Below, one piece after another: positions 6,166-39,346 of a DNA stretch of 64,000 nucleotides. The stretch spans positions 1,311,444 through 1,375,443 of the forward strand of contig NC_020812.1 in the NCBI RefSeq assembly GCF_000348745.1, read 5' to 3'. The notes beneath the pieces were generated by a model. That model was not told the origin of the DNA and did not search any database. It saw only the letters and a program-made list of their open reading frames with translations. The position numbers and the translations under genes were made by a program. The DNA is from Micavibrio aeruginosavorus EPB (GTDB lineage Bacteria; Pseudomonadota; Alphaproteobacteria; Micavibrionales; Micavibrionaceae). The first letter of the stretch is position 1; each line of letters starts with the position of its first letter.

Positions 6166-7875
6166 TCAAACACGAACAACGTGCACGGATGTTTTGGGCT
6201 TTAACCCCAGAATATCACTGATAAAACGGCGTGCAACGACCCGAACTTCTTCGGCGATGCTATCATCCGTCCTTTTTGCATCAATGTCCAGATCGACGAA
6301 CAAATCCTCAATCTCGTCAACCAGGTCATGCTCCAGCTTCTTTTCCTCGGGGCTGTCATGGTCGATCAGGCCCATGGTCGACACCCGCGGATCGGAGATC
6401 AGATCACCCCGATCGTCAACAACCAGCGTCACATGCACCGTACCGGTAAATTGCAGTTTCCGGCGCGTGGCAATCGCCTGGTGGTCCGCCGGGATCAGGC
6501 GGGATGGTTCAACCGCCAGCGTGCCCGTGCGAACGTGATCGACAACCTCGGCCCCCTTTGGGTCCAGACGGATGACAGATCCGTTATTCGGCACAATCGC
6601 ACTGGACACCTGTACGCCCAGAGCCAGCCGTGCCTGCGCCGCCAATTGCACGCGTTCACCGTGAACCGGAATGACGATCTTCGGGCGGACCCAACGATAC
6701 ATCTCCAAAATATCTTCGCGGTACGGGTGGCCGGAGACGTGGATCAGATGGTTCGTATCCATCGGGGTCACGATATGCACGCCTGTCGCGCTCAGGTTAT
6801 TTTTGACGACGTTGATTTCTTCCTCGTTCCCCGGAATCGGGCGGGCAGAGAAAATCACCGTGTCGCCGCGATTAAAACGGATAAACGGGTGCTCGGCACG
6901 CGCAATGCGGGCCAGCATCGCACGGGCTTCGCCCTGCGATCCCGTCACGATCATCACCAGATTTTCGTCCGGGACGGAATCAATCTCATCCTCTTCCAAA
7001 AACGGGCGCACATCGTTCAGGTAACCACATTCGCGCGCCGCGCTGGTCATTCGGTGCAAGGACCGCCCCAACAGCGCGACAGACCGGCCATTGGCTTCTG
7101 CCGCTTTGCAGATGGAATGAACGCGGCCAATGTTGGATGCGAAAATCGTGATGGCAATACGCCCCTTCACTTCACCGAACAACGCGCTCAGGCCGCGCTG
7201 AACCTCCATTTCCGACAATGTATTGCCCGGAACTTCGGCGTTCGTGGAATCGCCGATATAGGCCAGAACCCCTTCATCGCCCAAACGTTTGAACGCGGCG
7301 GCATCGGTGTTGTCACCAATGACCGGTTCTGGATCGAGGTTCCAGTCACCACTATGCACGATATGGCCATGCGGCGATTTGATTGCAACGGCCACGGCCT
7401 GTGGGATGGAGTGCGCGACGTGGATAAATTCCATTTCAAACGGCGCAAGGTTCAGCATCTGCCCCGGCGACACCACATGAATTTTGGCATTGCTGCTGCC
7501 CGGCAGGTCGTTGAATTTCTGGCGCAGGACGCTGGCCGTAAACGCCGTGCAATAAATCGGGCACCGCAAACGCGACCACAGATGCGCGACGGCACCCACA
7601 TGGTCTTCGTGCGCGTGCGTCACAATCAAGCCGACCAGATCATCGGCGCGCTCCGCAATAAATTCCGGATCGGGTAAAAGCAGATCAATGCCCGGGAAAC
7701 GGTGCCCGGCAAAACCGATACCACAATCAATGGCCAGCCATTTGCCCTGATACCCGTATACGTTCAGGTTGACACCAAATTGCTCACTCCCCCCCAGCGG
7801 GATGAAGTGAACGAAATTCGGATCGATGGAAAAATCTGCGACGCTGCGCGTCTTTTTATTGTTCTTTTTTGTCAT
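6166..7875 (-). CDS. rnj: Ribonuclease J
   Basis: Metallo-beta-lactamase/beta-CASP ribonuclease with endo- and 5'-3' exonuclease activity in RNA maturation and decay. The 569-residue protein has the metal-binding motif HAHEDH at residues 87-92, the later HSGDWNLDPEP, a beta-CASP region with VTGSQGE, and IPVHGE in the C-terminal half of the catalytic core. The length fits alphaproteobacterial RNase J (about 555 residues). It follows birA by 40 bases and precedes DUF1467, a standard order in the class. The type III pantothenate kinase gene (coaX) often found between birA and rnj is absent. Confidence 0.96.
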   Translation of the reverse strand: MTKKNNKKTRSVADFSIDPNFVHFIPLGGSEQFGVNLNVYGYQGKWLAIDCGIGFAGHRFPGIDLLLPDPEFIAERADDLVGLIVTHAHEDHVGAVAHLWSRLRCPIYCTAFTASVLRQKFNDLPGSSNAKIHVVSPGQMLNLAPFEMEFIHVAHSIPQAVAVAIKSPHGHIVHSGDWNLDPEPVIGDNTDAAAFKRLGDEGVLAYIGDSTNAEVPGNTLSEMEVQRGLSALFGEVKGRIAITIFASNIGRVHSICKAAEANGRSVALLGRSLHRMTSAARECGYLNDVRPFLEEDEIDSVPDENLVMIVTGSQGEARAMLARIARAEHPFIRFNRGDTVIFSARPIPGNEEEINVVKNNLSATGVHIVTPMDTNHLIHVSGHPYREDILEMYRWVRPKIVIPVHGERVQLAAQARLALGVQVSSAIVPNNGSVIRLDPKGAEVVDHVRTGTLAVEPSRLIPADHQAIATRRKLQFTGTVHVTLVVDDRGDLISDPRVSTMGLIDHDSPEEKKLEHDLVDEIEDLFVDLDIDAKRTDDSIAEEVRVVARRFISDILGLKPKTSVHVVRV

Positions 7876-7915
7876 GGGGCGATTGTGCAGGTATTTGGCG
7901 GATTATCAATGTTTT

Positions 7916-8650
7916 TTAAGCGTTGTTTGGAAAATAGACCTCGCCCGCATGAACCGTTTGCACGGTTCCATCCGGGGTTTGGAGCAACAGGGCCCCGGTA
8001 TCATCAATACCAAGGAATATGCCGGAGAGATCCCCGCCGTGCAGGCGCGCCGTAATCGGCGTGTTTAAACCGTGGGCCCGTGCCATCCACGTCTCTTTAA
8101 CCCACGAAAACCCGTCGGTTTTCCAGCGTGTATAAAGGCGGCCCAGATGGTGCAGAACCCGGTCACGCACGGTGATGACATCCAGTTCATGCCCCGCCAA
8201 TTGGGCCAGACCGATCCGATCCGCCGGGGCAGCGTTCACATTGATCCCCGTGCCGATAATCAGCGCATCAACGGTGCCCGTCGGGCCCAGATCGCTTTCC
8301 AGCAGGATGCCGGCACATTTCACACCATCGACCAGAACATCATTCGGCCATTTCAGGGTCAGGCCATCACCCTGCCCGGTCAATTCATCCGCCGCATCGG
8401 CCACGGCCAGCGCAACGACAAAGGCCATTTGCCCGGCCAGCGCAGGGGCGCAAGCCGGTTTCAACAAAATCGACATGTACAGATTGCCAACGGGTGATAC
8501 CCATTGATTGCCCCGGCGTCCGCGGCCCGCGGTTTGCACCTCCGCCTGAACCACCAGCCCTTCGGATGCACCGACGGATAATTCCGCCCGCACAACATCC
8601 TGGGTTGATGGCAGACTGTCATAAACACGACAGTCCCAACGGATGGTCAT
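7916..8650 (-). CDS. birA: Biotin-[acetyl-CoA-carboxylase] ligase
   Basis: Attaches biotin to the carrier protein of acetyl-CoA carboxylase through biotinyl-AMP. The 244-residue protein has GRGRRGNQW at residues 42-50, the biotin/ATP loop, then KWPNDVLVDGVKCAGILLE, which is the family core, and a short SH3-like C-terminal domain. There is no N-terminal DNA-binding helix-turn-helix, so unlike E. coli BirA it should be enzyme only. It begins three bases after the nuoN stop, which places it at the end of the nuoJKLMN transcript as in many alphaproteobacteria. Confidence 0.94.
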   Translation of the reverse strand: MTIRWDCRVYDSLPSTQDVVRAELSVGASEGLVVQAEVQTAGRGRRGNQWVSPVGNLYMSILLKPACAPALAGQMAFVVALAVADAADELTGQGDGLTLKWPNDVLVDGVKCAGILLESDLGPTGTVDALIIGTGINVNAAPADRIGLAQLAGHELDVITVRDRVLHHLGRLYTRWKTDGFSWVKETWMARAHGLNTPITARLHGGDLSGIFLGIDDTGALLLQTPDGTVQTVHAGEVYFPNNA

Positions 8651-8653
8651 GGC

Positions 8654-10204
8654 TTACAGGGCCTGCCCGAACAGGGCACTGGCCGCCGCACGCGTGGTTT
8701 CCACCAGCGTATCCGGCATCAAGACAAAACCGACCACCAGCGCAACACAAACGGTCAGAACCAGACGTTTGGTCGCGCCAATATCACCATCAAACGGATC
8801 GGCGGCTTCGTCAAAGAACATGACCTTGATCAAGCGCAGGTAATAGAACGCAGCCACAACCGATGCCACAACGCCCAGCACCGCCAGAACGTAGAACCCG
8901 GACGCCACAGCGGCCTTGAACACCAGAAACTTGCCAAAGAACCCGGCCAGAGGCGGAATACCGCTCATCGAGAACAGCAGCAAGGCCATGGCATAAGCCA
9001 GTGCCGGTTTATACCGGGACAACCCCGCCAGATCATTGATGGTTTCAACCGCAACATCATCACGGCGCATGACCAGAACGATCGCAAACACGCCCAGCGT
9101 CATCACCATGTAAATGGCGAGGTAGAACAGAACAGCGGCTACGCCCTCTTCCGTTCCGGCCAGCAGACCGAGCAGAACATAGCCCATGTTCCCGATCGAA
9201 CTGTACGCCAGCAGGCGTTTAATGTTGTTCTGCGCCAGACCGGCCACAGCCCCGACCACCATACTGGCGGCGGACAGGATCCAGATGATCTGTTGCCAAT
9301 CCGGCATCATCGCACCAAACGGACCAAACAGCAGACGGGTCAGCAAGGCCATGGCCGCAATTTTCGGCACAATGGCAAACAATGCCGTCACCGGGGTCGG
9401 AGCCCCTTCGTACACGTCCGGCGTCCACATGTGGAACGGAACGGCAGAGACCTTGAACGCCAAACCAACCAGAACGAACACCATGCCGACGATGGCCCCG
9501 GCGGTAATGCCGCCTTCGCTGGCATTGGCTTCGCCCAGAGTCGCGGCAATCGTATCAAAACTGAGCGACCCGGTATAACCGTAGATCAGCGAGATACCGA
9601 ACAGCAGCATGCCCGACGCCAGCGCACCCAGGACGAAATACTTAATCCCGGCTTCGGCCGCGCGCGCATGGTCACGGCGGAACGCCGCCAGCACGTACAG
9701 GCTAAGTGATTGCAATTCGAGCGCGACATAGAGGGAGAGCATGTTATTCGCCGACACCATCAGCATCATGCCGAGGCCCGCAAACAACACCAGCACAGGG
9801 TATTCAAACCGCGCCATGCGTTCCTGGTACAGATACCGTACAGAAATCGCCAGCGCGCCGGACAAACCAGCCAGAATCAAGAATTTGGCAAAGATCGCGA
9901 AGCGGTCGGACACAAACATGCCATCAAACGCCAGCGCCCGGTCCCAATCCAGTCCCGTCAGGAACAAGGCCGTCACGATAAATGCCCCGATGGTGCCCCA
10001 GCACACAGCCCGCGTCCCGTCATTGCCGCGCAGGACGCCGAAGATCAACAGCATCATGCCCGCAACGGCCAGGAACATTTCCGGAATGGCCGCGCCAAAC
10101 ATGGACGATGTCACCAGATGCGTTTCCGCAATGGCCACAACATCGGCGGCCTTTTCGACAACCTGCTCTACGGCCTGTTCAACCGCAATTACTTCATTAC
10201 TCAT
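8654..10204 (-). CDS. nuoN: NADH-quinone oxidoreductase subunit N
   Basis: Antiporter-like proton-pumping subunit of the complex I membrane arm. The 516-residue protein has about 14 hydrophobic helices, the conserved glutamate in [17 protein letters not shown], the discontinuous-helix segment [19 protein letters not shown], and [14 protein letters not shown] near the C-terminus. The N-terminal 35 residues form a polar, Val/Glu-rich extension before the first helix. The start overlaps the nuoM stop by four bases (ATGA). It is the last nuo gene of the second block. Confidence 0.96.
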
Positions 10205-27035: not shown

Positions 27036-30000
27036 TTACGGTGCCGTTCCCAACCTTGGTGACGCATCAATCGTGGATCCACCTGTACTGCCAAACTCAT
27101 TGGCACCATCACTATCCGATGCCTCATCAAATGTGGATGGGTCGGCATCTTGCCCCCACCAGTTGTTTTCAGCCTTGAGCACCGAAGCGGCAATGTCCGG
27201 ATTATAGTAAACGTTAATTCCGGCATTGTCGTAAATCTGGTTGCCGCCGGTGCTGGCAAATGCCCCGCCGCCCATATCAACGACCAGATTGTTTGTGCCC
27301 GCCGTGCTGTCAAATTCCTGAATCTCGATGCCGCGTTGCGCCGACCCGGTCAGGATGTTGTCAAACATACTGATATAGACAAAGGGCGCAGCCCCCGCCG
27401 CGGTCCGGATATACATATTGGACAGATCATTGTTGCGGATCGTATTGCCAGACATGGTATAGGCCGTTCCAACCGTCCCCATACGCCCACTGGCATCGCG
27501 CGCCGTGACGAAGACACCATATTCAGTATTATCCTCAATCACGTTATCCGTCATTGAACCTGTCACGGCGGAATCTCCCTGAATATTAAACTCGACGCCA
27601 TCACCGCCAGCATCGCTGATCCGGTTGGATGTCAAAATAATATTCGCGGTCGACGTATTGCGCGTATCAAAATACAAATTCTGCGCCGTTGATGTTGTCA
27701 CATCATTGTCATCGACAGTCAGATCAAGCGCGCCGGTATTCGCCGTCCGCACATCCATGCCGTTGCTGTTGTTACCGGTAATGGTGTTTCCCTGAACGGT
27801 CGCCGTCAGGCTGTTCGCCGTGCCGCTGGCCTCCAGGTAAATGCCGTCCGTCGTGTTGTCATAAATCTGGTTATTGCGGATAATTGTGTGGATTTCACTG
27901 GCATTCCCAACACCCGCGGCGGCACCAATACCGATGCCGTTGTTGTATGAAGTATTATTCTCCAGAATGACGGGATTGGCGACCGATCCCACCGTGACAG
28001 AATCTTCCAATGTCGCAACATACAGGCCACGACCCGCGTTATCGTATGTTGTGTTTCCATCAAAATGCGCATAGCTCTGCGACGAGCCGGATCGTGCATC
28101 AATCTGAATCCCGTTTTCAGAATGACCGCTGGCCGTGTTGCGATAGATGTTTACGTCCATCAATCCGTCGACGACGCCGTTATTCTGTGCCCGGATTTCG
28201 GCACCATCATCCTGGTTATCCTGCATGGTGTTATCGGACAGCTCCGCATACACCGTGCCACCAAACGCCCACAGCCCGAAACCATCCTCCGAGTTATCGG
28301 ACATCGTGTTGTTATGAATCACCAATCGGTTGGCAAGGCTGCCCGCCGTCATGTTCTGGTCCATCCGAATGACCAGGCCTGATGTATCAATGTCCGGCTC
28401 AATAACATTGTCGGTCAGGGCATTGCTGAAATTATTATTTTCAATACGTCCGTTCAACACAACGTTTGTGACGCCGCCTGTGGCATTGCCAATCCGGAAC
28501 CCGTCACCGACGTTATTATTGACGTCATTGTCATGAACATCGATATCAACGGTCGCATCACCCGCAAGATCCATATGAATCCCGCGATAGTTATTTCCTG
28601 TGACTTCGTTTCCACTGACATTAAAATCAATGTCCGACGTACCCGATGTATAGATACGAATGGTATCATTCCCCGCCGCCGTACCGTTAGCGGTCAGAAG
28701 ATTGTCCGTTAATGTATAAGATCCGGTCACGTTGGTGGCATCAATAAACACGCCATGCGCGCCGGAATTCTGGATCGTTGAATCGTGCAGGGTAAAATTC
28801 GCAACACTATCAACCCGAACACCCGCCCCCGTCGCACCATCCACCGTCACGCCCGATACCGAAACATTATCGGCCGTGACCGTAATGCCAACCCCGGCCC
28901 CGTTGGTCAGCGTTGGCGCGGCATTCGCGGCAATCAAAACAGCGTTGTTAAAACGGCCTGCCCCTGATGCGCTGAATCGGTCGGTGTCATAAACAAAATC
29001 GGTTCCGGCCCCAACGATCTGAACGCCTTCATTGCTGATGGCCAATCCGGTATCCATGCCGTTTGATCCAACACCTGTATAGATGTAGACAACGTCATGA
29101 TCCTGTAACGCGGCCTGTACATCGGCCAGATTATTGAACGGATTTTCCATTGATCCGTCACCACCGCCCGCGGCCTGGTTATCAATATAAATAATCCGTT
29201 GGGCCGTACCCGTTGTCGCATTCAAAACCGCAACAGCCTGCGGTGCACCGGATGTTTCGGCCTTGCTGGACGTCACGACATCAACATCACGCACAGGCGA
29301 CGCCGTCATGCGCGCTTTCAACCCGGTCAGATCCCTGCCCGACCCGCCAAATGGCAATGTAAATCGTGCCCCGACCCAGCCATCCCGGCCCCGTTCATCG
29401 TCATACTGCCCTTCGGCAGTTAAGGCGACATGCTCGGTAATCTCATACCGCGCCCGCGCCCGCACCCCAACCATGGTTGGGGAATCATCGCCGCTAAAGC
29501 TATAGCCAGCCAAATACATCCATAAATCTGTTTTCGGGATCTTGGCGCCGGCCTCAACATCACCGCCATAAAGCGGTTGCTCACGAATGACCATAGATTG
29601 AGAATCAACGAACAGCCCCGTGCCGGACAAATACGGATCACTGAGCGTCGCAGCCGTATCGACCAAAACATCATCGGTCAACGGCGCATAACCATTGGCG
29701 CGCACTTCCCATTCTTCCGCCAGCCATTCCGCCCCGGCCGTTAATTGGGAATGCATTTCCTCGCTAAAACCGGATCGTTTCCGGTCAAAATACACGTACC
29801 CGCCCAGAACCCCGCTTTCCTTCAAAAAGCGAGTCCCAAGGCCTAGGTTGATTTCACGGTTGCTCTGATCATCAGCCTTCAGGCGAATATCAGAAAAAAG
29901 CAGCGTATCGGGCGAACACGCCACAGGCAGGAAGATCGCGGTTTCGCCAATCTTGCGGTCCCCGTATTTCCCTTCGACATCAATATGCCCCGGGTAATAG

Positions 30001-30113
30001 CGACACGGCGCAGAGGTAAAGGCTGGGACGTCGCGTGTGCTTTGCGCCGACGCGATATCCGCCCCACTCAACACAAGACATGCAACAGAAGACAGCAAAA
30101 ACGCTTTTTTCAT
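27036..30113 (-). CDS. Inverse autotransporter barrel with parallel beta-helix passenger
   Basis: A 1025-residue surface protein. ATG at 30113 gives a signal peptide (MKKAFLLSSVACLVLSGADIASA) and has AAAGGGG before it; the longer frame has no signal. Residues 30-260 resemble the inverse autotransporter barrel of intimin/invasin: LGGYVYFDRKRSGF, LTAGAEWLAEEWEVRANGYAP, and closing strands GWVGARFTLPFG. A linker follows, then from about residue 310 IIYIDNQAAGGGDGSMENPF begins a long right-handed beta-helix built of dozens of turns such as LSDNTMQDNQDDGAEIRA, ending ENNWWGQDADP. In this family the C-terminal passenger is exported through the N-terminal barrel. A role in adhesion or glycan contact is inference. 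There is a clear Asn/Asp/Thr-rich composition in the passenger. Confidence 0.85.
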   Translation of the reverse strand: MKKAFLLSSVACLVLSGADIASAQSTRDVPAFTSAPCRYYPGHIDVEGKYGDRKIGETAIFLPVACSPDTLLFSDIRLKADDQSNREINLGLGTRFLKESGVLGGYVYFDRKRSGFSEEMHSQLTAGAEWLAEEWEVRANGYAPLTDDVLVDTAATLSDPYLSGTGLFVDSQSMVIREQPLYGGDVEAGAKIPKTDLWMYLAGYSFSGDDSPTMVGVRARARYEITEHVALTAEGQYDDERGRDGWVGARFTLPFGGSGRDLTGLKARMTASPVRDVDVVTSSKAETSGAPQAVAVLNATTGTAQRIIYIDNQAAGGGDGSMENPFNNLADVQAALQDHDVVYIYTGVGSNGMDTGLAISNEGVQIVGAGTDFVYDTDRFSASGAGRFNNAVLIAANAAPTLTNGAGVGITVTADNVSVSGVTVDGATGAGVRVDSVANFTLHDSTIQNSGAHGVFIDATNVTGSYTLTDNLLTANGTAAGNDTIRIYTSGTSDIDFNVSGNEVTGNNYRGIHMDLAGDATVDIDVHDNDVNNNVGDGFRIGNATGGVTNVVLNGRIENNNFSNALTDNVIEPDIDTSGLVIRMDQNMTAGSLANRLVIHNNTMSDNSEDGFGLWAFGGTVYAELSDNTMQDNQDDGAEIRAQNNGVVDGLMDVNIYRNTASGHSENGIQIDARSGSSQSYAHFDGNTTYDNAGRGLYVATLEDSVTVGSVANPVILENNTSYNNGIGIGAAAGVGNASEIHTIIRNNQIYDNTTDGIYLEASGTANSLTATVQGNTITGNNSNGMDVRTANTGALDLTVDDNDVTTSTAQNLYFDTRNTSTANIILTSNRISDAGGDGVEFNIQGDSAVTGSMTDNVIEDNTEYGVFVTARDASGRMGTVGTAYTMSGNTIRNNDLSNMYIRTAAGAAPFVYISMFDNILTGSAQRGIEIQEFDSTAGTNNLVVDMGGGAFASTGGNQIYDNAGINVYYNPDIAASVLKAENNWWGQDADPSTFDEASDSDGANEFGSTGGSTIDASPRLGTAP

Positions 30114-30236
30114 GAGAGACCCCTTTTCGAGAAGGCATCGAAAGTCACGGAGAAATAAATATGAAAATAAAACTTGAAGACGCCCGTAGGATACGGACAA
30201 GAAAATGATGCATCACAACATATCGCGATGCAATAA

Positions 30237-30485: not shown

Positions 30486-31898
30486 TTAGTTAACTTCAAC
30501 CCCAACCAACCCCTCGCGCCACATGCGGAAGAAGCTGCCTTTGTGAAAGTCCAAACTGGCCTCTGGTTCGGCGACGCAGGCGTGAATTGCATCCCCGGCG
30601 ATGAATCGAACATCGGCGGCAGCGGCGGCCAATGCCACTTTCGGATCATCCGCCCCCAGCAGGAAGGTCCGGCTGATCAGATGACGGCGTGTGCGCTTCA
30701 CAAAATTCTGAATATCGCTTTCCATCATCCGATAGGCCCGCCCGCCATTACCAGTAGAAGAGCCATTCACCATAACACCCAGCACATCAAAACCGGCCAT
30801 ACGCAAGGCTTCGTAATCCGCCTCCCCAACGCTGGTCAACGACACACGACCACACAAAACGCGCCCGAATGTTTTCAATGGCGAAATCATCCGGTGCAAT
30901 GTCATCCACGGCGTATGTGCCGGAACATCCATCACCATAAACAGCATATAGGCCTTCATGCGCTCATCAATCTTCTGGCACAATGCGCGGTAACGCTGCT
31001 GTCCGTCCATGCTGGACAAGGTGTAATGATGCACCGGACAAATAATACCGAAATCCGGGATCATGTCGGGATTGGCCTGGAACCAAGCAATCACGGTCCG
31101 TAAAACCAGCATATCCATGGCAATCACCATGGCCCCCGGCGCGTTGGCATAGAACGCTTCATGGGCCCGAATGGCCTGCCCACCCGCATCCGGATAATCA
31201 GCCACGGCCATCTGGGCCACTTTACGACCCTTGTAATGGTCCCACACCGGCATATAGCGCACCGCAGTAAAGGGCAACTCATGAACATCGTCCATCGCTC
31301 CGGTTTCTTTTTTATGCGGCGCCGTCATTTCGTGGTGCAACCGTGCCGCACGATCGTGGCCAGCATGCAAAACAGATGAAAAATTGGGTGATCGCGACGC
31401 GGTCAGCTGAATTTGGCCATTCACGCGCCCCTTTTCAAACAACATCACGATGGATTGCACCAATGGCATATTGTGATCCAGATCCGTCATCTGGATCAGG
31501 GACACATCCTTTTTGACCGTAATTTGGTCAACACCGTCCAAGGCCTGCAAACCGCGTTTCATTTCTTCGACAATCAGAGTGATTTTCAAATCGCTTTCAA
31601 CAATTGTGCTTTCGGTAAAAAGAATGATGAAAGCATCATCGCGAAATTCGACACACATATCATCATCACTGATGTACTTTCCAATCACGTTTTTGCAGAC
31701 ATCTGAAATTTTGCTGTGCAGATTGTCCCATCGCGCACCGCTGTTATTGCGGATCGTGCGCAGGCCCAGGATTTCCATTCGTCCCGCGGCAACAACGCCA
31801 TTCTTATTGAAGAAACTCGACAACGCATTACCAAGAACAGCATGATTTTTAAACGACATGAAATTCTGTTCTTGATTCACATTCCCCTGGCCAACCAT
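30486..31898 (-). CDS. Degenerate GGDEF-EAL-like protein, paralogue 1
   Basis: A 470-residue cytoplasmic protein and the last of three tandem relatives. ATG at 31898 has GGGAG eight bases upstream. Residues 15-120 follow a GGDEF-domain pattern: GRMEILGLRTI for the first strand and, where RxGGDEF should be, EFRDDAFIILF, so the signature is lost. Residues 225-465 follow an EAL-domain pattern: RYMPVWDHYKGRKVAQMAV has no EAL triad, DFGIICPVHHYTLSS resembles the VNlS strand, and RFIAGDAIHACVAEPE resembles the terminal QGY..P strand. Catalysis of c-di-GMP synthesis or breakdown is therefore unlikely; a binding or scaffold role is inferred. Similarity to paralogues 2 and 3 is evident over the whole length. 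Confidence 0.75.
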   Translation of the reverse strand: MVGQGNVNQEQNFMSFKNHAVLGNALSSFFNKNGVVAAGRMEILGLRTIRNNSGARWDNLHSKISDVCKNVIGKYISDDDMCVEFRDDAFIILFTESTIVESDLKITLIVEEMKRGLQALDGVDQITVKKDVSLIQMTDLDHNMPLVQSIVMLFEKGRVNGQIQLTASRSPNFSSVLHAGHDRAARLHHEMTAPHKKETGAMDDVHELPFTAVRYMPVWDHYKGRKVAQMAVADYPDAGGQAIRAHEAFYANAPGAMVIAMDMLVLRTVIAWFQANPDMIPDFGIICPVHHYTLSSMDGQQRYRALCQKIDERMKAYMLFMVMDVPAHTPWMTLHRMISPLKTFGRVLCGRVSLTSVGEADYEALRMAGFDVLGVMVNGSSTGNGGRAYRMMESDIQNFVKRTRRHLISRTFLLGADDPKVALAAAAADVRFIAGDAIHACVAEPEASLDFHKGSFFRMWREGLVGVEVN

Positions 31899-32087
31899 CA
31901 CCCATTCTCCCGAATTTTTATTTTATATACCCGTTGTATTTCGAGTATGCCCCCCTAGACTGAAGAATGAATTGCGAGGCAAGACCACTTAGGGTTATAT
32001 CGGGAACATTATTTTGACAGACAAAACGCATCCAAAAACGACCGCGTTTTAAACAAACCCAACAAAGACAACATCCATCACAAAATA

Positions 32088-33572
32088 CTAATGCACACCA
32101 CCGGATCGCGCCGGATCACTGCGCCACAATCTGAAGAATTCGTTGATTGAAAAATCCTGTTCCGATTCAGGTTTCGGAACGCACGGATGAATGGCATCGC
32201 CCGCCATAAACCGAACATCCGCCATCGCCGCCGCCACCGCCGTATCGGCATCATCCGCGCCCATAATGAATGTACGGTTGATAATATGTTTTCGTGCGCG
32301 ATGGACAAAATTTTCGAGATCAGGCTGTAACGATTTGTGCGTTCGCCCCGCTGCAGAGTCACCGACGAACACACCCAAAACATCAAACCCGGCCATACGC
32401 AGCGCTTCTATGTCTGTATCGGTAATATCAAGCGGAACCTGACCGCATAGAAACCGACTATATGTTTTTAATGGCGACACCAGGTGCTCCATACTTAACC
32501 ACGGCATATGGACTGGTAAATCCATAACCAGAAACAGCATGAATTGCTTCATACGGTCATCAATCTGCTGACACAGGGACCGATACCGTTCCTTCCCTTC
32601 TCTGCTGGATAATGTTCTGAAATTCACCGGGCAGATCAACCCAAATTCCGGCAAGGCATTCGAGTTGCTTCGCAGCCAATTGATAATCGCCTGCAAAATA
32701 AACATATCCATCTCGACAATTTCATGATCACTGCGGCCAATGTAAAAATTCCGATGCGACTGCATTGCATTTGGCCCCGCCCCCGGATAATCGGCCACAG
32801 CAACCAACGACACACGACGACCGCGATACTGATCCCATGCAGGCATAAACCGTACACCGCTAAACGGCATGATCACGGGGTCTGGCTTCGGCGCATGCTT
32901 TAACCTGCCAAAGCGTCGCGGGTGATGCCTGTGATGGACGAACTCAACTTCCGTCCTTGGGATGGGGGTAAAGTCGGGCGTTTTATGCCCCTGCTCTGCC
33001 ATTTCCATGGTCGCCCGCATACGCCCCTTATCAAAGGCCAACGGCACAGACTGGATAAACGGCAAATTCCGGTCCACTTCATGGGCCGATATATGTGACA
33101 TCTCTTTTTCCATTGTGATGGAGTCCAAACCCAACTCATCAAACAAACGGCGTCTGATTTCTTCGGCCATCAACGCAGCCTTCATGTCGCTTTCCACTAG
33201 CGTGCTGCTCATAAACAGCAGGATATAGCTATCATCCTCATAACGGATATAGATATCACCGCGCTCCAGATATTTGCTGATTGTTTCTTCGCAGATCACG
33301 AAAACCTGATCCTGCATCCCGGTCCAGCGGCGTCCCATTTGTGCCTTGACCGCGCGCAACCCCAGAATCTGCAATCGCCCGGACGCGACCAGATCGCGTT
33401 TTTCAAACAGCTTCGTACACAGAACTTCCAGCTCTGCGTGCTGGCTTTCTGTTAATCGCATTGGTTTTTTTGAATATGACCGCGCCGAAAACGCACGATC
33501 GTCGGAATGCGTCCAAAACGCCAATTTCGACACATACCCACGGATCCGTCCAGCCACACCGCGCACACGCAT
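32088..33572 (-). CDS. Degenerate GGDEF-EAL-like protein, paralogue 2
   Basis: A 494-residue relative of its two neighbours. ATG at 33572 has a strong GGAGGGG site. A basic N-terminal segment (MRVRGVAGRIRGYVSKLAFW) precedes the first domain, shared in form with paralogue 3 (MSHVRDYVAGLVF), and may bind membrane or nucleic acid. The GGDEF-like domain has ASGRLQILGL and MGRRWTGMQD, and YIRYEDDSYILLF where GGDEF is expected. The EAL-like domain has RFMPAWDQYRGRRVSLVAV, FGLICPVNFRTLSS, VLGVFVGDS and RFMAGDAIHPCVPKPE. Key metal-binding acids of active EAL domains are not visible. It lies 189 bases upstream of paralogue 1. Confidence 0.75.
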   Translation of the reverse strand: MRVRGVAGRIRGYVSKLAFWTHSDDRAFSARSYSKKPMRLTESQHAELEVLCTKLFEKRDLVASGRLQILGLRAVKAQMGRRWTGMQDQVFVICEETISKYLERGDIYIRYEDDSYILLFMSSTLVESDMKAALMAEEIRRRLFDELGLDSITMEKEMSHISAHEVDRNLPFIQSVPLAFDKGRMRATMEMAEQGHKTPDFTPIPRTEVEFVHHRHHPRRFGRLKHAPKPDPVIMPFSGVRFMPAWDQYRGRRVSLVAVADYPGAGPNAMQSHRNFYIGRSDHEIVEMDMFILQAIINWLRSNSNALPEFGLICPVNFRTLSSREGKERYRSLCQQIDDRMKQFMLFLVMDLPVHMPWLSMEHLVSPLKTYSRFLCGQVPLDITDTDIEALRMAGFDVLGVFVGDSAAGRTHKSLQPDLENFVHRARKHIINRTFIMGADDADTAVAAAMADVRFMAGDAIHPCVPKPESEQDFSINEFFRLWRSDPARSGGVH

Positions 33573-33590
33573 AGGCCCCTCCGCAATAAG

Positions 33591-33677
33591 TCACAAAATA
33601 TGGATTAAGTATGTCCCCTTACATTCATTGTCGCACTGAAACCCGCAGAAAAGCGACAAAAAACGGATATTTTGTGA
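33591..33677. repeat. Nested inverted repeats between paralogues 2 and 3
   Basis: Outer arms TCACAAAATAT (33591-33601) and ATATTTTGTGA (33667-33677) are perfect complements; inside them TTGTCGC (33628-33634) pairs with GCGACAA (33653-33659). This is the leader of paralogue 2 and could be an operator or RNA structure. Confidence 0.55.
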
Positions 33678-33730
33678 TTCACGGGAAATGCAAAATGCGA
33701 AACGCAGATTTTCGCAACCGCGCCACGATC

Positions 33731-35203
33731 TTAATGCGGGCGCGAACCATCCTTAAGATGGTTATTCCATAGCTGCAAAAATCCATTGTCTGGAAAATGT
33801 AATTTTTCATCGGGATTTTGCACGCTTTGATGCACAGCGGTTCCGGCGATATAACGCACACCAGCCTTGATCGCCGCAGTGACAAGCTCTGGACTATCCA
33901 CATCAAGGACAAACGTTTGGTTGATCAAATATCGTTTGGCCTTGTTGACAAGGGATTGGATATTCAAAATTTCCGCATCTTTCCCACCGCCCGACACAGA
34001 CCGGGCGATGATCCCGATATTATCAAACCCGGCAATGCGCAACAAAGACAGATCGGAATTTAATCCCGGCGTGGAAATATGCCCGCACAAAACGCGGCCA
34101 TAGGCTTTCAAAGGCGAAACAACTTCGCTTAACCGCGCACTGGACATATGAACGACGGGAACACCCATAACCATGAAAAGGATATGGCTTTTCATGCTCT
34201 CATTCATCTTCTGGCACAGAACACGGTATTTTTCGGCCCCCTCGACACTTGAAATCGTACTGAAATTTACAGGGCAGATAATACCAAAATTACGTGTCGC
34301 ATTATCATGTTCGCCAAACCACTGAATCAATCCCGCAAGAATATCGGTATCGATTGCCGCAATGGCGGAAGCGGAACGTCCCCGGAAAAACCGCTGATGC
34401 GTTTCCGCGGCTCCCGGCTCATCATCACGACCGGCCACGCACATAAATGCAATTAATCGTCCCTTGAATACATCCCAAACGGGCATATACCGTACCGCAT
34501 GCCGCGGGGCCATCTTTTCGGCAATAACGGGTTTAGCCACTGCCGCATCATCCTCGGCAATGGACACATCAACACGCTTCACCAACGCCAGATCAATTTC
34601 GTTTTTATTGGACACTGAGGGAACGACGACGGCGCCTTTCTTCTTGCGCGACAACCGGCTTTCAAATGTTTCCGAGATGGATTGTTTGGAAAAACCGCCC
34701 GCACCCAGACTGTCGCGACTAAGGACGGAAACGTCTTTGCGCACGCCGACATTCTCAATCCCATGGTTTTCAAACAGGCAGCGGCGTATCTCCGATGCAA
34801 TCAGGGTCATTCTTGCATCGCTTTCTTCAGCGGAACTTGTTCCGAACAGGATAATGAAATCTTTTTCCTTATAACGGAAAAAAACATCGCTGGAATTGGT
34901 GTATTTTTTTATGACATCTTCGCAGGTTTCGTAAATGATATCCCGTAACCCCGCCCAACGCCGGCCCATTTTTTTCCTGACCTCATCAAGACCCAACACC
35001 TGAATGCGGCCGGACGCGATCAACTCTTTTTTCATGAACAACGCTTCGCACAACGACTCAAGCTTTACTTGACGGCGTTGTGCTGCGGCTGGATCAACGT
35101 TTTCCGCTTTGCGCTTTATGACATTGGTACGGGTGTGCCCCTTGCGAAACACAAGTCCTGCAACATAATCACGAACATGGCTCATAATACCGTGTGCTTG
35201 CAT
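33731..35203 (-). CDS. Degenerate GGDEF-EAL-like protein, paralogue 3
   Basis: A 490-residue member of the triplet and the first in transcription order. It shows the fold pattern best: ASGRIQVLGLDEVRKKMGRRW matches the GGDEF strand-helix start, VFFRYKEKDFIILF stands where vaRxGGDEFaill is expected, and AEESDARMTLIASEIRRCLF matches the following helix. The C-terminal EAL-like part has RYMPVWDVFKGRLIAFMCV, FGIICPVNFSTISS, SPLKAYGRVLCG and VRYIAGTAVHQSVQNP. The signature residues of active cyclases and phosphodiesterases are replaced. A 60-residue linker between domains is variable. Start ATG 35203 has no strong ribosome site; ATG 35185 is an alternative. Confidence 0.75.
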   Translation of the reverse strand: MQAHGIMSHVRDYVAGLVFRKGHTRTNVIKRKAENVDPAAAQRRQVKLESLCEALFMKKELIASGRIQVLGLDEVRKKMGRRWAGLRDIIYETCEDVIKKYTNSSDVFFRYKEKDFIILFGTSSAEESDARMTLIASEIRRCLFENHGIENVGVRKDVSVLSRDSLGAGGFSKQSISETFESRLSRKKKGAVVVPSVSNKNEIDLALVKRVDVSIAEDDAAVAKPVIAEKMAPRHAVRYMPVWDVFKGRLIAFMCVAGRDDEPGAAETHQRFFRGRSASAIAAIDTDILAGLIQWFGEHDNATRNFGIICPVNFSTISSVEGAEKYRVLCQKMNESMKSHILFMVMGVPVVHMSSARLSEVVSPLKAYGRVLCGHISTPGLNSDLSLLRIAGFDNIGIIARSVSGGGKDAEILNIQSLVNKAKRYLINQTFVLDVDSPELVTAAIKAGVRYIAGTAVHQSVQNPDEKLHFPDNGFLQLWNNHLKDGSRPH

Positions 35204-35268: not shown

Positions 35269-35304
35269 AAAAAGTAAAGAGGGATGGCACGATACCATCC
35301 CTCT
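35269..35304 (-). terminator. Terminator after ald
   Basis: Hairpin AGAGGGATGG (35278-35287), 7-base loop, CCATCCCTCT (35295-35304), followed on the minus strand by TTACTTTTT. It separates ald from the GGDEF-EAL-like triplet. Confidence 0.85.
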
Positions 35305-35340
35305 TTTGCAAATTCGGACGCAGCACTATCCCAAAGAATT

Positions 35341-36462
35341 TCAGGCGGCCAGAGCCTTGGGCTCCGGGTTGAACGGCAAATTCAGCGATTCCGCTACGCT
35401 GCGGTACGTGATTTCCCCGCGGCAGACATTGAGACCGTTTCGCAAATTGGGATCTTCCAACACGGCACGTTTCCACCCCTTATCCGCCAACGCCAGCGCA
35501 TAGGGCAAAACAGCGTGGTTCAGGGCCAATGCAGACGACAGCGGCACAGCCCCCGGCATGTTTGCCACGCAATAATGCACGACGCCATCAACGACATAGG
35601 TCGGGTCCTTGTGCGTGGTGGCATGGCTGGTTTCGAAACACCCACCCTGGTCAATCGCGATGTCGACAATCACCGATCCAGGAATCATGGTTTTCAACAT
35701 CGGCTTGGTCACCAATTTCGGTGCCGCCGCACCGGGGATCAGCACCGCGCCAATGACCAGGTCACAAACCTGAACATATTGTTCAACGGAATCCATGCTG
35801 GAATAAATCACGTTGGCCTGGCCACGGAAATAATCGTCCAGCGTGCGCAGGCGATCATGGTCACGTTCCAGAATGGTGACATTTGCCCCCATGCCAACGG
35901 CCACGCGTGCCGCGTTAAACCCGGCTACACCGCCGCCAATCACCAGAACATTGCCGGGGCGAACGCCCGGAACGCCGGAAATCAAACGCCCAACGCCGCC
36001 CATATGTTTCATCATGTTGTTCGCACCGACCAGAACGGACAGGCGACCCGCAATTTCCGACATCGGAGCCAGCAACGGCAAACCACGGCCATCACGCCCC
36101 GTCACCGTTTCATAGGCAATGGCGACACAGCCGGATTCCATCAAACCCTTGGCCTGTTCCGGGTCCGGGGCCAGGTGCAGATAGGTGAACAGCAATTGAT
36201 CTTCGCGCAACATCTGGCATTCAACCGGCTGCGGTTCTTTCACCTTCACGATCATGTCGGCTTCGGCGAAGATTTCTTTGGCGGTGCCTTTAATCGTCGC
36301 ACCGGCCTTTTTGTAATCTTCGTCACTGAAATTAATTCCGGCCCCTGCTCCGGTTTCAACGATCACCTGATGACCGCGCGCGATAAATTCCTTCACCGAT
36401 GATGGCACCAGACCAACGCGATGTTCCTGAGCCTTGATTTCCTTTGGCACGCCGATTTTCAT
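35341..36462 (-). CDS. ald: Alanine dehydrogenase
   Basis: NAD-dependent enzyme that interconverts L-alanine with pyruvate and ammonia. The 373-residue protein starts at ATG 36462 with MKIGVPKEIKAQEHRVGLVP, the standard Ald N-terminus containing the substrate-binding Arg and, further on, a conserved Lys; longer frames do not fit. The NAD-binding fold shows VLVIGGGVAGFNAARVAVGM. The C-terminus NLPFNPEPKALAA is usual for the family. It is followed by a good terminator and appears to be a single-gene transcript. Confidence 0.96.
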   Translation of the reverse strand: MKIGVPKEIKAQEHRVGLVPSSVKEFIARGHQVIVETGAGAGINFSDEDYKKAGATIKGTAKEIFAEADMIVKVKEPQPVECQMLREDQLLFTYLHLAPDPEQAKGLMESGCVAIAYETVTGRDGRGLPLLAPMSEIAGRLSVLVGANNMMKHMGGVGRLISGVPGVRPGNVLVIGGGVAGFNAARVAVGMGANVTILERDHDRLRTLDDYFRGQANVIYSSMDSVEQYVQVCDLVIGAVLIPGAAAPKLVTKPMLKTMIPGSVIVDIAIDQGGCFETSHATTHKDPTYVVDGVVHYCVANMPGAVPLSSALALNHAVLPYALALADKGWKRAVLEDPNLRNGLNVCRGEITYRSVAESLNLPFNPEPKALAA

Positions 36463-36572
36463 GTAACACTCCATGATGTGAAAACGCGGCCTATTCTTGC
36501 CTGAAACCCGGCCCGCATTCAACACGCAGCGCAGCATAGAAAACAAGGATCTGAGTTATGTCCACTCACCCC

Positions 36573-37384: not shown

Positions 37385-39346
37385 TCAGTGGCTACTGGAC
37401 TGCCCCGTCCCCAAAATAGCAACCACACCGCGATCAACAACTTTGGATACACGCCGTAGGCGCATCAGCTCTTCGTCTTTAACTGCGGGTGACAACATAT
37501 AGGGAATAACAGGCGTGGTCCGCATAACGTCCCATATTTTCATTTGGCGCCATGACGGCTCGCGCCCCTCACGGCCCAGAATATTGATCCCCGCATGGCG
37601 GTAATTGCGCACGGCACGATATGCCAGCGTCGGGCCAGCCGGATCGTCAAGGACACCGCGCACCACCTGCCGTCGCAAACCATCAAAATGAATCACGCCC
37701 AAACGATGGATATTCGATTCAAAATCCGGGGCGTGCGGATGGCGATGCAGGTAGCTTTGCAAGGACCGGAACATCGCCCCCACCACGGCATTGCGGGTCT
37801 GCTTCATTTTATTCAAGACACCGATACGCATAGCGTCAGGCATATCGGGCCGGGGCCAGATGGGTGCCGCCGCCTGCTGGAACCGATCCGCGGGATCATT
37901 CCCCTCGCCCGCCTGGCCCAAGGCCGGATCGCGCAAACGGGCTTCTTCATCAAAACGCACATGCGCCAAAGCACGGGCATAGGCCTTGATACTTTCCTGA
38001 ATACCAACAGGCTGGGTCTCAAATTGCCGCAGGCCGCCAATCGCACTTGCGCCCCACAAAACACGGTTTTGGGCATCTGCTGGCTTTTCGCATTCATACT
38101 GCAAACACGCCGACAATGCCGTATTCAAATCCGACAGAACATCGTCCGTCATAAAACCGGGCCGTTCCAGAAATTCCAGATACATGGCCCCCAGATGATC
38201 CAAATTCACCTGTTCGGGGTAACGTGTTTTCGGATTGCGCCAGCGATCATGCATATATTGCACCAGATCGGACCCATCCGGGCGGGTCAGCGTTTCCATA
38301 CGCGTCAATGCACGCCCCATCAACGGATCATCCACCGGCAACACCCGCACCAGCGAAAACAGGGCCACGGTGCCAAAATAATCCATGTAATGGTGGCGCA
38401 CATTCGGGGATACGCCATCATCCTCTAACGCGCGATCAATGCGCTCCAACGCGTCGCAATATTTTTCAACCTGCACATCCAAATCACGATCATCGCCATT
38501 CGTACGCATTTCGCGATACGTATCCGCATGGCTGGCCAGCGCCCAGCCCTCATAACTGTTCGGGGCATCGCTCCCCTCGCGGTCCGCCATACTGAACGAC
38601 AGATAGGATTTGAGAAATTCGCCCAACGCCGGGCCATAAGATGGTTTGCGGAACGCGTGTGAAATTTCATCGGTTAAGACGGGGCTAGTGAGGCCGTGTA
38701 AAACATCATGGTTCCCAATCGTTGCCATGGCCGCCAGAGATTCAAGAAGGTCGGATGGGTTATACGGCGCAATGCGGTCCATCACCGTTTTGTCGAGAAC
38801 CATGACCGGGAACGCAATGGACGCCTGTTCCGCATGGCGCAAACATTGAATGAAACCTAAATGATATTGACGTCCGGCAATATCGGAGGGGCGGCTGAAT
38901 GACGTAAGCGCTTTGTCCTTTGTAACCTGTTCCCACACATCGCTTGGCACAATTGCAACTTCGGACAACACGATATTCCCGGTATCCGCCGCCATCTTGT
39001 TGAACAATCCGCTCAACCGCTCCGGCGCGAAATGGGTTTTGGGTGACGTATCATCTGCAATCATCCGGTGATACGCCACAATCCCATGTTTGGCATTAAA
39101 CGGATTTGGCTCCGTTGCGGTCACAAGACCATCATTCATCAACCGCGCCCCAAGCGCCGTCATATAGGGGGACAGACGATCAGCCTCATAGGCCGCCACC
39201 CCGGACTCGGAATCGGCATATAAACGGCTGATATAGGTTTGCAGGATATGCGCGCCCTCTGCCCCGGTCTGCGCCGTCACGGGCGGGCGATAGGATAATC
39301 CGGCCTTACCGGGCTGGTTTTCGGTCGTCGTCTTACGCTGCGCCAA
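37385..39346 (-). CDS. Large protein of unknown function
   Basis: A 653-residue cytoplasmic protein that I cannot place in a family. The start is TTG at 39346, supported by GAGAGG four bases upstream; no ATG near it is better placed. It has no signal peptide or membrane segment and is largely helical, with a possible His/Asp cluster (AMATIGNHDVLHGL, and RHHYMDYFGTVALF around residues 318-331). The C-terminal part ends with basic and Ser-rich residues (GTGQSSSH). Base and codon use look like the neighbours. It stands alone between a secreted protein and tRNA-Val; no operon partner gives a clue. Confidence 0.75.
   Translation of the reverse strand: MAQRKTTTENQPGKAGLSYRPPVTAQTGAEGAHILQTYISRLYADSESGVAAYEADRLSPYMTALGARLMNDGLVTATEPNPFNAKHGIVAYHRMIADDTSPKTHFAPERLSGLFNKMAADTGNIVLSEVAIVPSDVWEQVTKDKALTSFSRPSDIAGRQYHLGFIQCLRHAEQASIAFPVMVLDKTVMDRIAPYNPSDLLESLAAMATIGNHDVLHGLTSPVLTDEISHAFRKPSYGPALGEFLKSYLSFSMADREGSDAPNSYEGWALASHADTYREMRTNGDDRDLDVQVEKYCDALERIDRALEDDGVSPNVRHHYMDYFGTVALFSLVRVLPVDDPLMGRALTRMETLTRPDGSDLVQYMHDRWRNPKTRYPEQVNLDHLGAMYLEFLERPGFMTDDVLSDLNTALSACLQYECEKPADAQNRVLWGASAIGGLRQFETQPVGIQESIKAYARALAHVRFDEEARLRDPALGQAGEGNDPADRFQQAAAPIWPRPDMPDAMRIGVLNKMKQTRNAVVGAMFRSLQSYLHRHPHAPDFESNIHRLGVIHFDGLRRQVVRGVLDDPAGPTLAYRAVRNYRHAGINILGREGREPSWRQMKIWDVMRTTPVIPYMLSPAVKDEELMRLRRVSKVVDRGVVAILGTGQSSSH

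Follow-up and report, generated by a model that had tools for sequence, protein, structure and literature searches.

A tandem triplet of degenerate GGDEF-EAL proteins in Micavibrio aeruginosavorus EPB and the alphaproteobacterial family to which it belongs

Three consecutive genes of Micavibrio aeruginosavorus EPB, here called A, B and C in their reading order on the minus strand (A -> B -> C), encode proteins that by profile comparison and predicted structure carry the folds of GGDEF and EAL domains and have lost the catalytic residues of both. They belong to an un-named, un-annotated family that neither Pfam nor NCBIfam detects at threshold; no description of it was found in a literature search that covered few subscription journals. 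It seems to us fairly probable that A, B and C are non-enzymatic, protein-binding GGDEF-EAL pseudoenzymes and that the family serves as the output partner of a phosphorelay receiver. The window analyzed is a stretch of 64,000 nucleotides of the 2,458,610-base genome.

The gene triplet and the fold of its products

The three open reading frames can be aligned end to end and lie in tandem where an earlier note on this DNA had placed them (Table 1). In full-length alignment, C and B are 43% identical and A is 34-36% identical to B or C, far above chance; the C product is without the N-terminal extension present in A and B. B and C probably have separate promoters and do not form one tight operon with A, given the width of the two gaps and the conservation of the stretches upstream of B and C in the sister strain ARL-13, where conserved blocks adjoin the start codons. 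No consensus promoter was seen in the A-B spacer, and a GGGGRCATACT sequence common to both spacers was discarded as being at chance level (35/100 shuffles). A hairpin between ald and gene A suggests that gene A may not be read through from ald, the promoter/terminator scan itself being at chance level (13 hairpins in the region vs 10.7 expected). Downstream of the triplet, past tRNA-Asp, the window at 27036-30200 encodes an inverse-autotransporter-like beta domain followed by right-handed beta-helix repeats, likely a large surface protein judging from these domains. At 37385-39346 it encodes a 653-aa protein with no Pfam match and 92% identity to its ARL-13 counterpart.

Table 1. Positions of the triplet and adjoining features in the window.
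Feature	Position	Strand	Description
Gene A	33731..35203	minus	490 aa; degenerate GGDEF ~aa 60-162 (KEKDF) and degenerate EAL ~aa 237-465 (MCV)
Gene B	32088..33572	minus	494 aa; degenerate GGDEF ~aa 60-162 (EDDSY) and degenerate EAL ~aa 236-470 (VAV)
Gene C	30486..31901	minus	471 aa; degenerate GGDEF (RDDAF) and degenerate EAL (MAV)
A-B spacer	33573..33730	minus	158 bp; B-proximal part conserved in ARL-13; putative B promoter
B-C spacer	31902..32087	minus	186 bp; C-proximal part conserved in ARL-13; putative C promoter
Terminator-like hairpin, ald-gene A interval	35276..35306	minus	14 pairs and T run; pattern only
Alanine dehydrogenase (ald)	35341..36546	minus	upstream neighbor of gene A

The earlier note had read a GGDEF fold in the N-terminal half and an EAL fold in the C-terminal half from residue patterns, and both assignments were borne out by profile and structure comparison. 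In hhalign, the family aligned with the genome's own active GGDEF/EAL domains at E 6.6e-8, colinear across both, and with the single domains at E 1.2e-6 (GGDEF) and E 8e-7 (EAL). AlphaFold models were built for A and B, each from 8 sequences; the mean pLDDT of the two models was 69 and 67, with confident domains (mostly 70-90) and a poor N-terminus, linker and C-tail. The top Foldseek matches in the PDB were dual-domain GGDEF-EAL structures, PA0575 (5m3c, 3.2e-14) for the A model and LapD (3pjw, 4.4e-14) for the B model; the overall rmsd of such dual-domain matches (15-22 A) reflects inter-domain geometry, and the domain arrangement is left unclaimed. VIA-align of the B model against EAL domains gave Z ~20 (MucR EAL, Z 20.4, rmsd 3.1 over 219 residues). 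No unrelated fold was obtained for either model, and the fold of the C product was assigned via its full-length homology to B.

Family profiles recover little of this. The best PF00990 score was 13.8 bits vs a cut-off of 23.8; A and B gave sub-threshold matches and C none; across 20 family members, 13 match PF00990 at E < 1 (best 5.8e-5). PF00563 (EAL) had no Pfam match in A, B or C and one match among the 20 members (E 0.17), and an NCBIfam scan of A, B and C gave nothing meaningful. We concluded from the profile alignments and the models that A, B and C are GGDEF-EAL fold proteins, homologous to GGDEF and EAL domains.

Catalytic residues and c-di-GMP signatures

Catalytic and metal-binding positions were mapped by an hhalign alignment onto 20 members, comprising A, B, C and 17 relatives. 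GGDEF is replaced in each of the three proteins by the residues quoted in the earlier note (Table 1), and the metal Asp is Gly in 20/20 members, so that A, B and C lack both the signature and the metal residue of a diguanylate cyclase. The MGRRW motif quoted for all three is present in A and B, while C reads SGARW. The C-terminal motifs read as quoted and the EAL triad is absent (Table 1). Across the 20 members, the EAL Glu is replaced by L/M/V/F, the EAL metal Asn by Pro (20/20), the ExTE Glu by F/L/I, the first Asp of the DD motif by E/Q/R/H/N and the second by V/I/L/M/T, the Lys of LKID by Gly (19/20), the AEG Glu by L/M/I and the QG Gln by G/A/S/C; thus every one of these phosphodiesterase residues is replaced in A, B and C. 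The description of the proteins as catalytically dead therefore holds for the triplet and the 17 relatives, no active-site residue having been overlooked, and cyclase or phosphodiesterase catalysis by A, B and C is excluded by sequence.

The same alignment bears on the idea that another small molecule or nucleotide now binds in the barrel or in the GGDEF-like cleft, with the family-wide invariant residues marking the new site. Several invariants are indeed absent from the aligned canonical domains, namely W246 (PxWD), P315 (CPV), G71 and W83, and D106 is kept in 20/20 members. Most of the new invariants, however, are hydrophobic, Gly or Pro, as expected of a packed core and atypical of a polar ligand site, and we regard a new ligand as very doubtful.

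The earlier note had also proposed that the three proteins are dead receptors of c-di-GMP, in which ligand bound in the EAL barrel or at the GGDEF I-site would change protein contacts, as in FimX, LapD or CdgA. The domain order is that of FimX and LapD, LapD ranks high among the structural matches, and CdgA of Bdellovibrio, a degenerate GGDEF protein that is needed for fast prey entry, binds c-di-GMP (PMC3271064). The genome also encodes ~7 GGDEF and ~7 EAL proteins above the family cut-offs, which makes c-di-GMP signaling in the cell likely. Dead EAL domains, on the other hand, bind c-di-GMP via a determinative ExLxR motif, and the degenerate GGDEF receptors listed in the same review carry RxxD (PMC10333796). 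The ExLxR position reads VAVAD in B, MAVAD in C and MCVAG in A, so the signature of FimX/LapD-type dead-EAL receptors is absent. The I-site RxxD position, ahead of the GGDEF position as in PelD/PopA-type receptors, reads ERGD (B), SDDD (C) and NSSD (A), and its Arg is retained in 1/20 family members. The Gln of QP and the Gln of QG are lost as well, and GVE has Asp in place of its second Glu. The receptor part of the earlier proposal is left unsupported because both predictive signatures are missing from A, B and C; canonical c-di-GMP binding is unlikely on these residues, and a receptor function of any such kind appears unlikely to us overall. A scaffold role, the other function suggested there, is possible. 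Judged by its residues, the family lacks the features that define cyclases, phosphodiesterases and the two known receptor classes.

Among characterized proteins, LapD resembles A, B and C as an enzymatically dead dual-domain protein but is a transmembrane, c-di-GMP-binding receptor, and A to C are without such N-terminal domains or the binding signature. CdgA of Bdellovibrio bacteriovorus (Kd ~2 uM for c-di-GMP; PMC3271064) is likewise a degenerate GGDEF protein of a bacterial predator; it differs as a GGDEF-type c-di-GMP receptor, and its relation to A, B and C is shown no further than the domain. YdiV/STM1344 and STM1697 are EAL-only proteins with neither catalysis nor c-di-GMP binding (PMC10333796), and thus examples of a dead EAL fold that works through protein contact alone, but they have no GGDEF half and come from another lineage. 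Both halves of CsrD are degenerate, and its E. coli version lacks c-di-GMP binding (PMC10333796); CsrD shares with the family the character of a non-enzymatic regulator and differs as a GAPES4-HAMP protein acting on CsrB/CsrC RNA turnover. By analogy, the nearest precedents for how A, B and C might work would be YdiV and CsrD and, for a predator, CdgA.

Receiver and kinase genes beside the family

Outside the genus Micavibrio, a stand-alone CheY-like receiver gene lies directly upstream of the family gene on the same strand in 13 of 16 loci of the order (gap -93 to +103 bp), and a histidine kinase gene is found within 6 kb in 11 of those 13. The receiver keeps Asp8/Asp9/Asp51, Ser79 and Lys104, of which Asp51, Ser79 and Lys104 are invariant, and its phospho-acceptor site is thus conserved. 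Six kinases were scanned (loci L063, L066, L067, L069, L070 and L073), and all are hybrid kinases of the HisKA-HATPase-REC-Hpt type; their sensors vary (MHYT, CHASE, PAS, Tll0287), as if differing inputs feed one kind of output. At E <= 1e-45 the receiver was found in 13/142 genomes of the order, all 13 with the family, and the best receiver in a family-less genome scored 9.5e-39; the receiver model was built from the family's neighbors, so this co-occurrence is partly by construction.

The arrangement is less regular elsewhere in the class. Among 20 class loci examined outside the order, the receiver and family genes share 4 bp in two (L124 and L129), the receiver gene lies beside the family gene on the opposite strand in one (L138), and no ortholog-like receiver is adjacent in the other 17, so many family members must work without it. 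In Micavibrio itself the adjacent same-strand receiver is missing, and the genus has no receiver at E <= 1e-32 (best 31-38% identical). Several relatives have an ABC-F gene close to the family gene; its counterpart in the window's genome adjoins no receiver, kinase or family remnant.

Some loci show unusual gene structures. In genome G049 (L053 1498-2991, L077 9253-10746), an ORF for a histidine kinase continues in frame into the final ~30 residues of the pseudoenzyme family (..DYLGGTIIHDVVDRPDSVHRF..), as would result from a deletion that fused the adjacent genes for kinase and pseudoenzyme, or from a join made in assembly. At L065 11312-12670 (= L084 7819-9177), a second, very diverged member stands on the other side of the receiver, giving the order pseudoenzyme, receiver, pseudoenzyme, kinase. 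The L124 member (6913-8904, G435) has 663 aa, with an apparent second GGDEF-like domain in front.

Adjacency and co-occurrence are what was observed; from gene order alone we infer contact between receiver and pseudoenzyme. In the ancestral chain, the signal would pass from kinase to Hpt to receiver to pseudoenzyme: the phosphorelay would phosphorylate the stand-alone receiver, which would then bind the pseudoenzyme, the two together forming a response regulator in two pieces. The pseudoenzyme would pass the signal on by contact, as do dead EAL proteins such as YdiV; we know of no co-encoding of YdiV or STM1697 with a receiver. FimX (REC-like/PAS/degenerate GGDEF/EAL; Pseudomonas, Xanthomonas) is a similar case: its system likewise pairs a degenerate GGDEF-EAL part with a receiver-like one, and its action through binding of PilB or PilZ resembles the proposed contact role. 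It differs in being one chain and in binding c-di-GMP through its EAL domain, whereas in the family the receiver is a separate gene, absent in the Micavibrio genus, and ExLxR is lost. For Micavibrio the mechanism is extrapolated, the window's own genome being without the receiver. There the receiver would have been lost and the gene, now beside ald, duplicated twice and then diverged; A, B and C would probably take their inputs from one another, from a different receiver, or from one of the cell's canonical GGDEF/EAL enzymes.

History in Micavibrio and distribution of the family

The same ordered triplet is found in M. aeruginosavorus ARL-13 (genome G002; 2,481,983 bases, PMC3189940) and, among the genomes of the order, only there and in the window's genome. 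Two other members of the genus have one copy each, and none was found in G001. In the tree, the copies of the genus are monophyletic and sit on a long branch (1.12 changes per column); among them, those of both strains make up a clade (A,(B,C)) to which G003 and G004 are external, and the inner order has moderate support (90-92). The single copy of G004 has the same surroundings, with ald upstream and shared genes downstream, and the triplet most likely arose at that ald-adjoining site. Between EPB and ARL-13, B and C are 94% identical, A is 60% identical and flanking genes are mostly 92-99% identical. The dN/dS values are 0.030 for B, 0.044 for C and 0.135 for A (dS near saturation for A); all three copies are thus kept under purifying selection and A diverges fast, its dN being ~9x that of B and C.

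Such conservation, in two sister genomes, of an ordered triplet with every copy under purifying selection could also mean that A, B and C mainly form a hetero-oligomer with each other or inhibit the cell's active GGDEF/EAL enzymes, whose genes lie at other places in the genome. Relatives in the order mostly have a single copy, which makes a hetero-oligomer unlikely as the ancestral function, and we consider this explanation decidedly unlikely.

The family reaches well beyond the triplet. Its profile matches 26/142 genomes and 17/54 genera of the order; in a class-wide draw, 79/385 genomes matched, many below 1e-30, and in a phylum-wide draw 5/398 genomes, all five in the same class; absence outside the class holds only at the sensitivity of that draw. 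Related loci were searched for with a five-sequence alignment of closer relatives. The EAL motif was seen in none of 18 in-frame class loci, by eye, when 19 of the best loci were read. The earlier note's idea of a new signaling group multiplied in tandem, possibly restricted to one lineage, is borne out in part: the triplet was seen in the two sister genomes only, but the family is class-wide, with tandem pairs in at least three other genomes (G267, G517 and G450). Azospirillum homologues are carried on plasmids and annotated 'hypothetical protein'; two of them (L144 and L145) stand beside [NiFe]-hydrogenase maturation genes, with no receiver in the stretch shown. In the window's own genome, a match at 232789 (E 8e-4, one internal stop) belongs to another ORF without family features, and weak GGDEF matches near 685-686 kb are not members of the family either. 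A basic amphipathic segment at the N-terminus of many members is weak and absent in C, and was not used.

The full account, in which class-wide pseudoenzymes neither make, break nor bind c-di-GMP and act as the output of a two-piece regulator, with the receiver lost and the output tripled and re-purposed in Micavibrio, is put forward tentatively as plausible, if short of probable. The interest lies mainly in the family and its proposed receiver partner. The usual way of counting c-di-GMP networks relies on profile matches, by which Pfam and NCBIfam both miss this family; a branch derived from GGDEF-EAL proteins and seen in ~1/5 of the class-wide genome draw is now labelled 'hypothetical protein' (Azospirillum records). 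Gene order offers a testable partner in the stand-alone receiver. Micavibrio is an obligate bacterial predator with poorly known signaling, and the loss of the partner together with the tripling of the pseudoenzyme would make it a natural experiment in re-purposing. If the account is true, it would be a case of GGDEF-EAL folds that have cut every tie to c-di-GMP and answer to phosphorelays instead.
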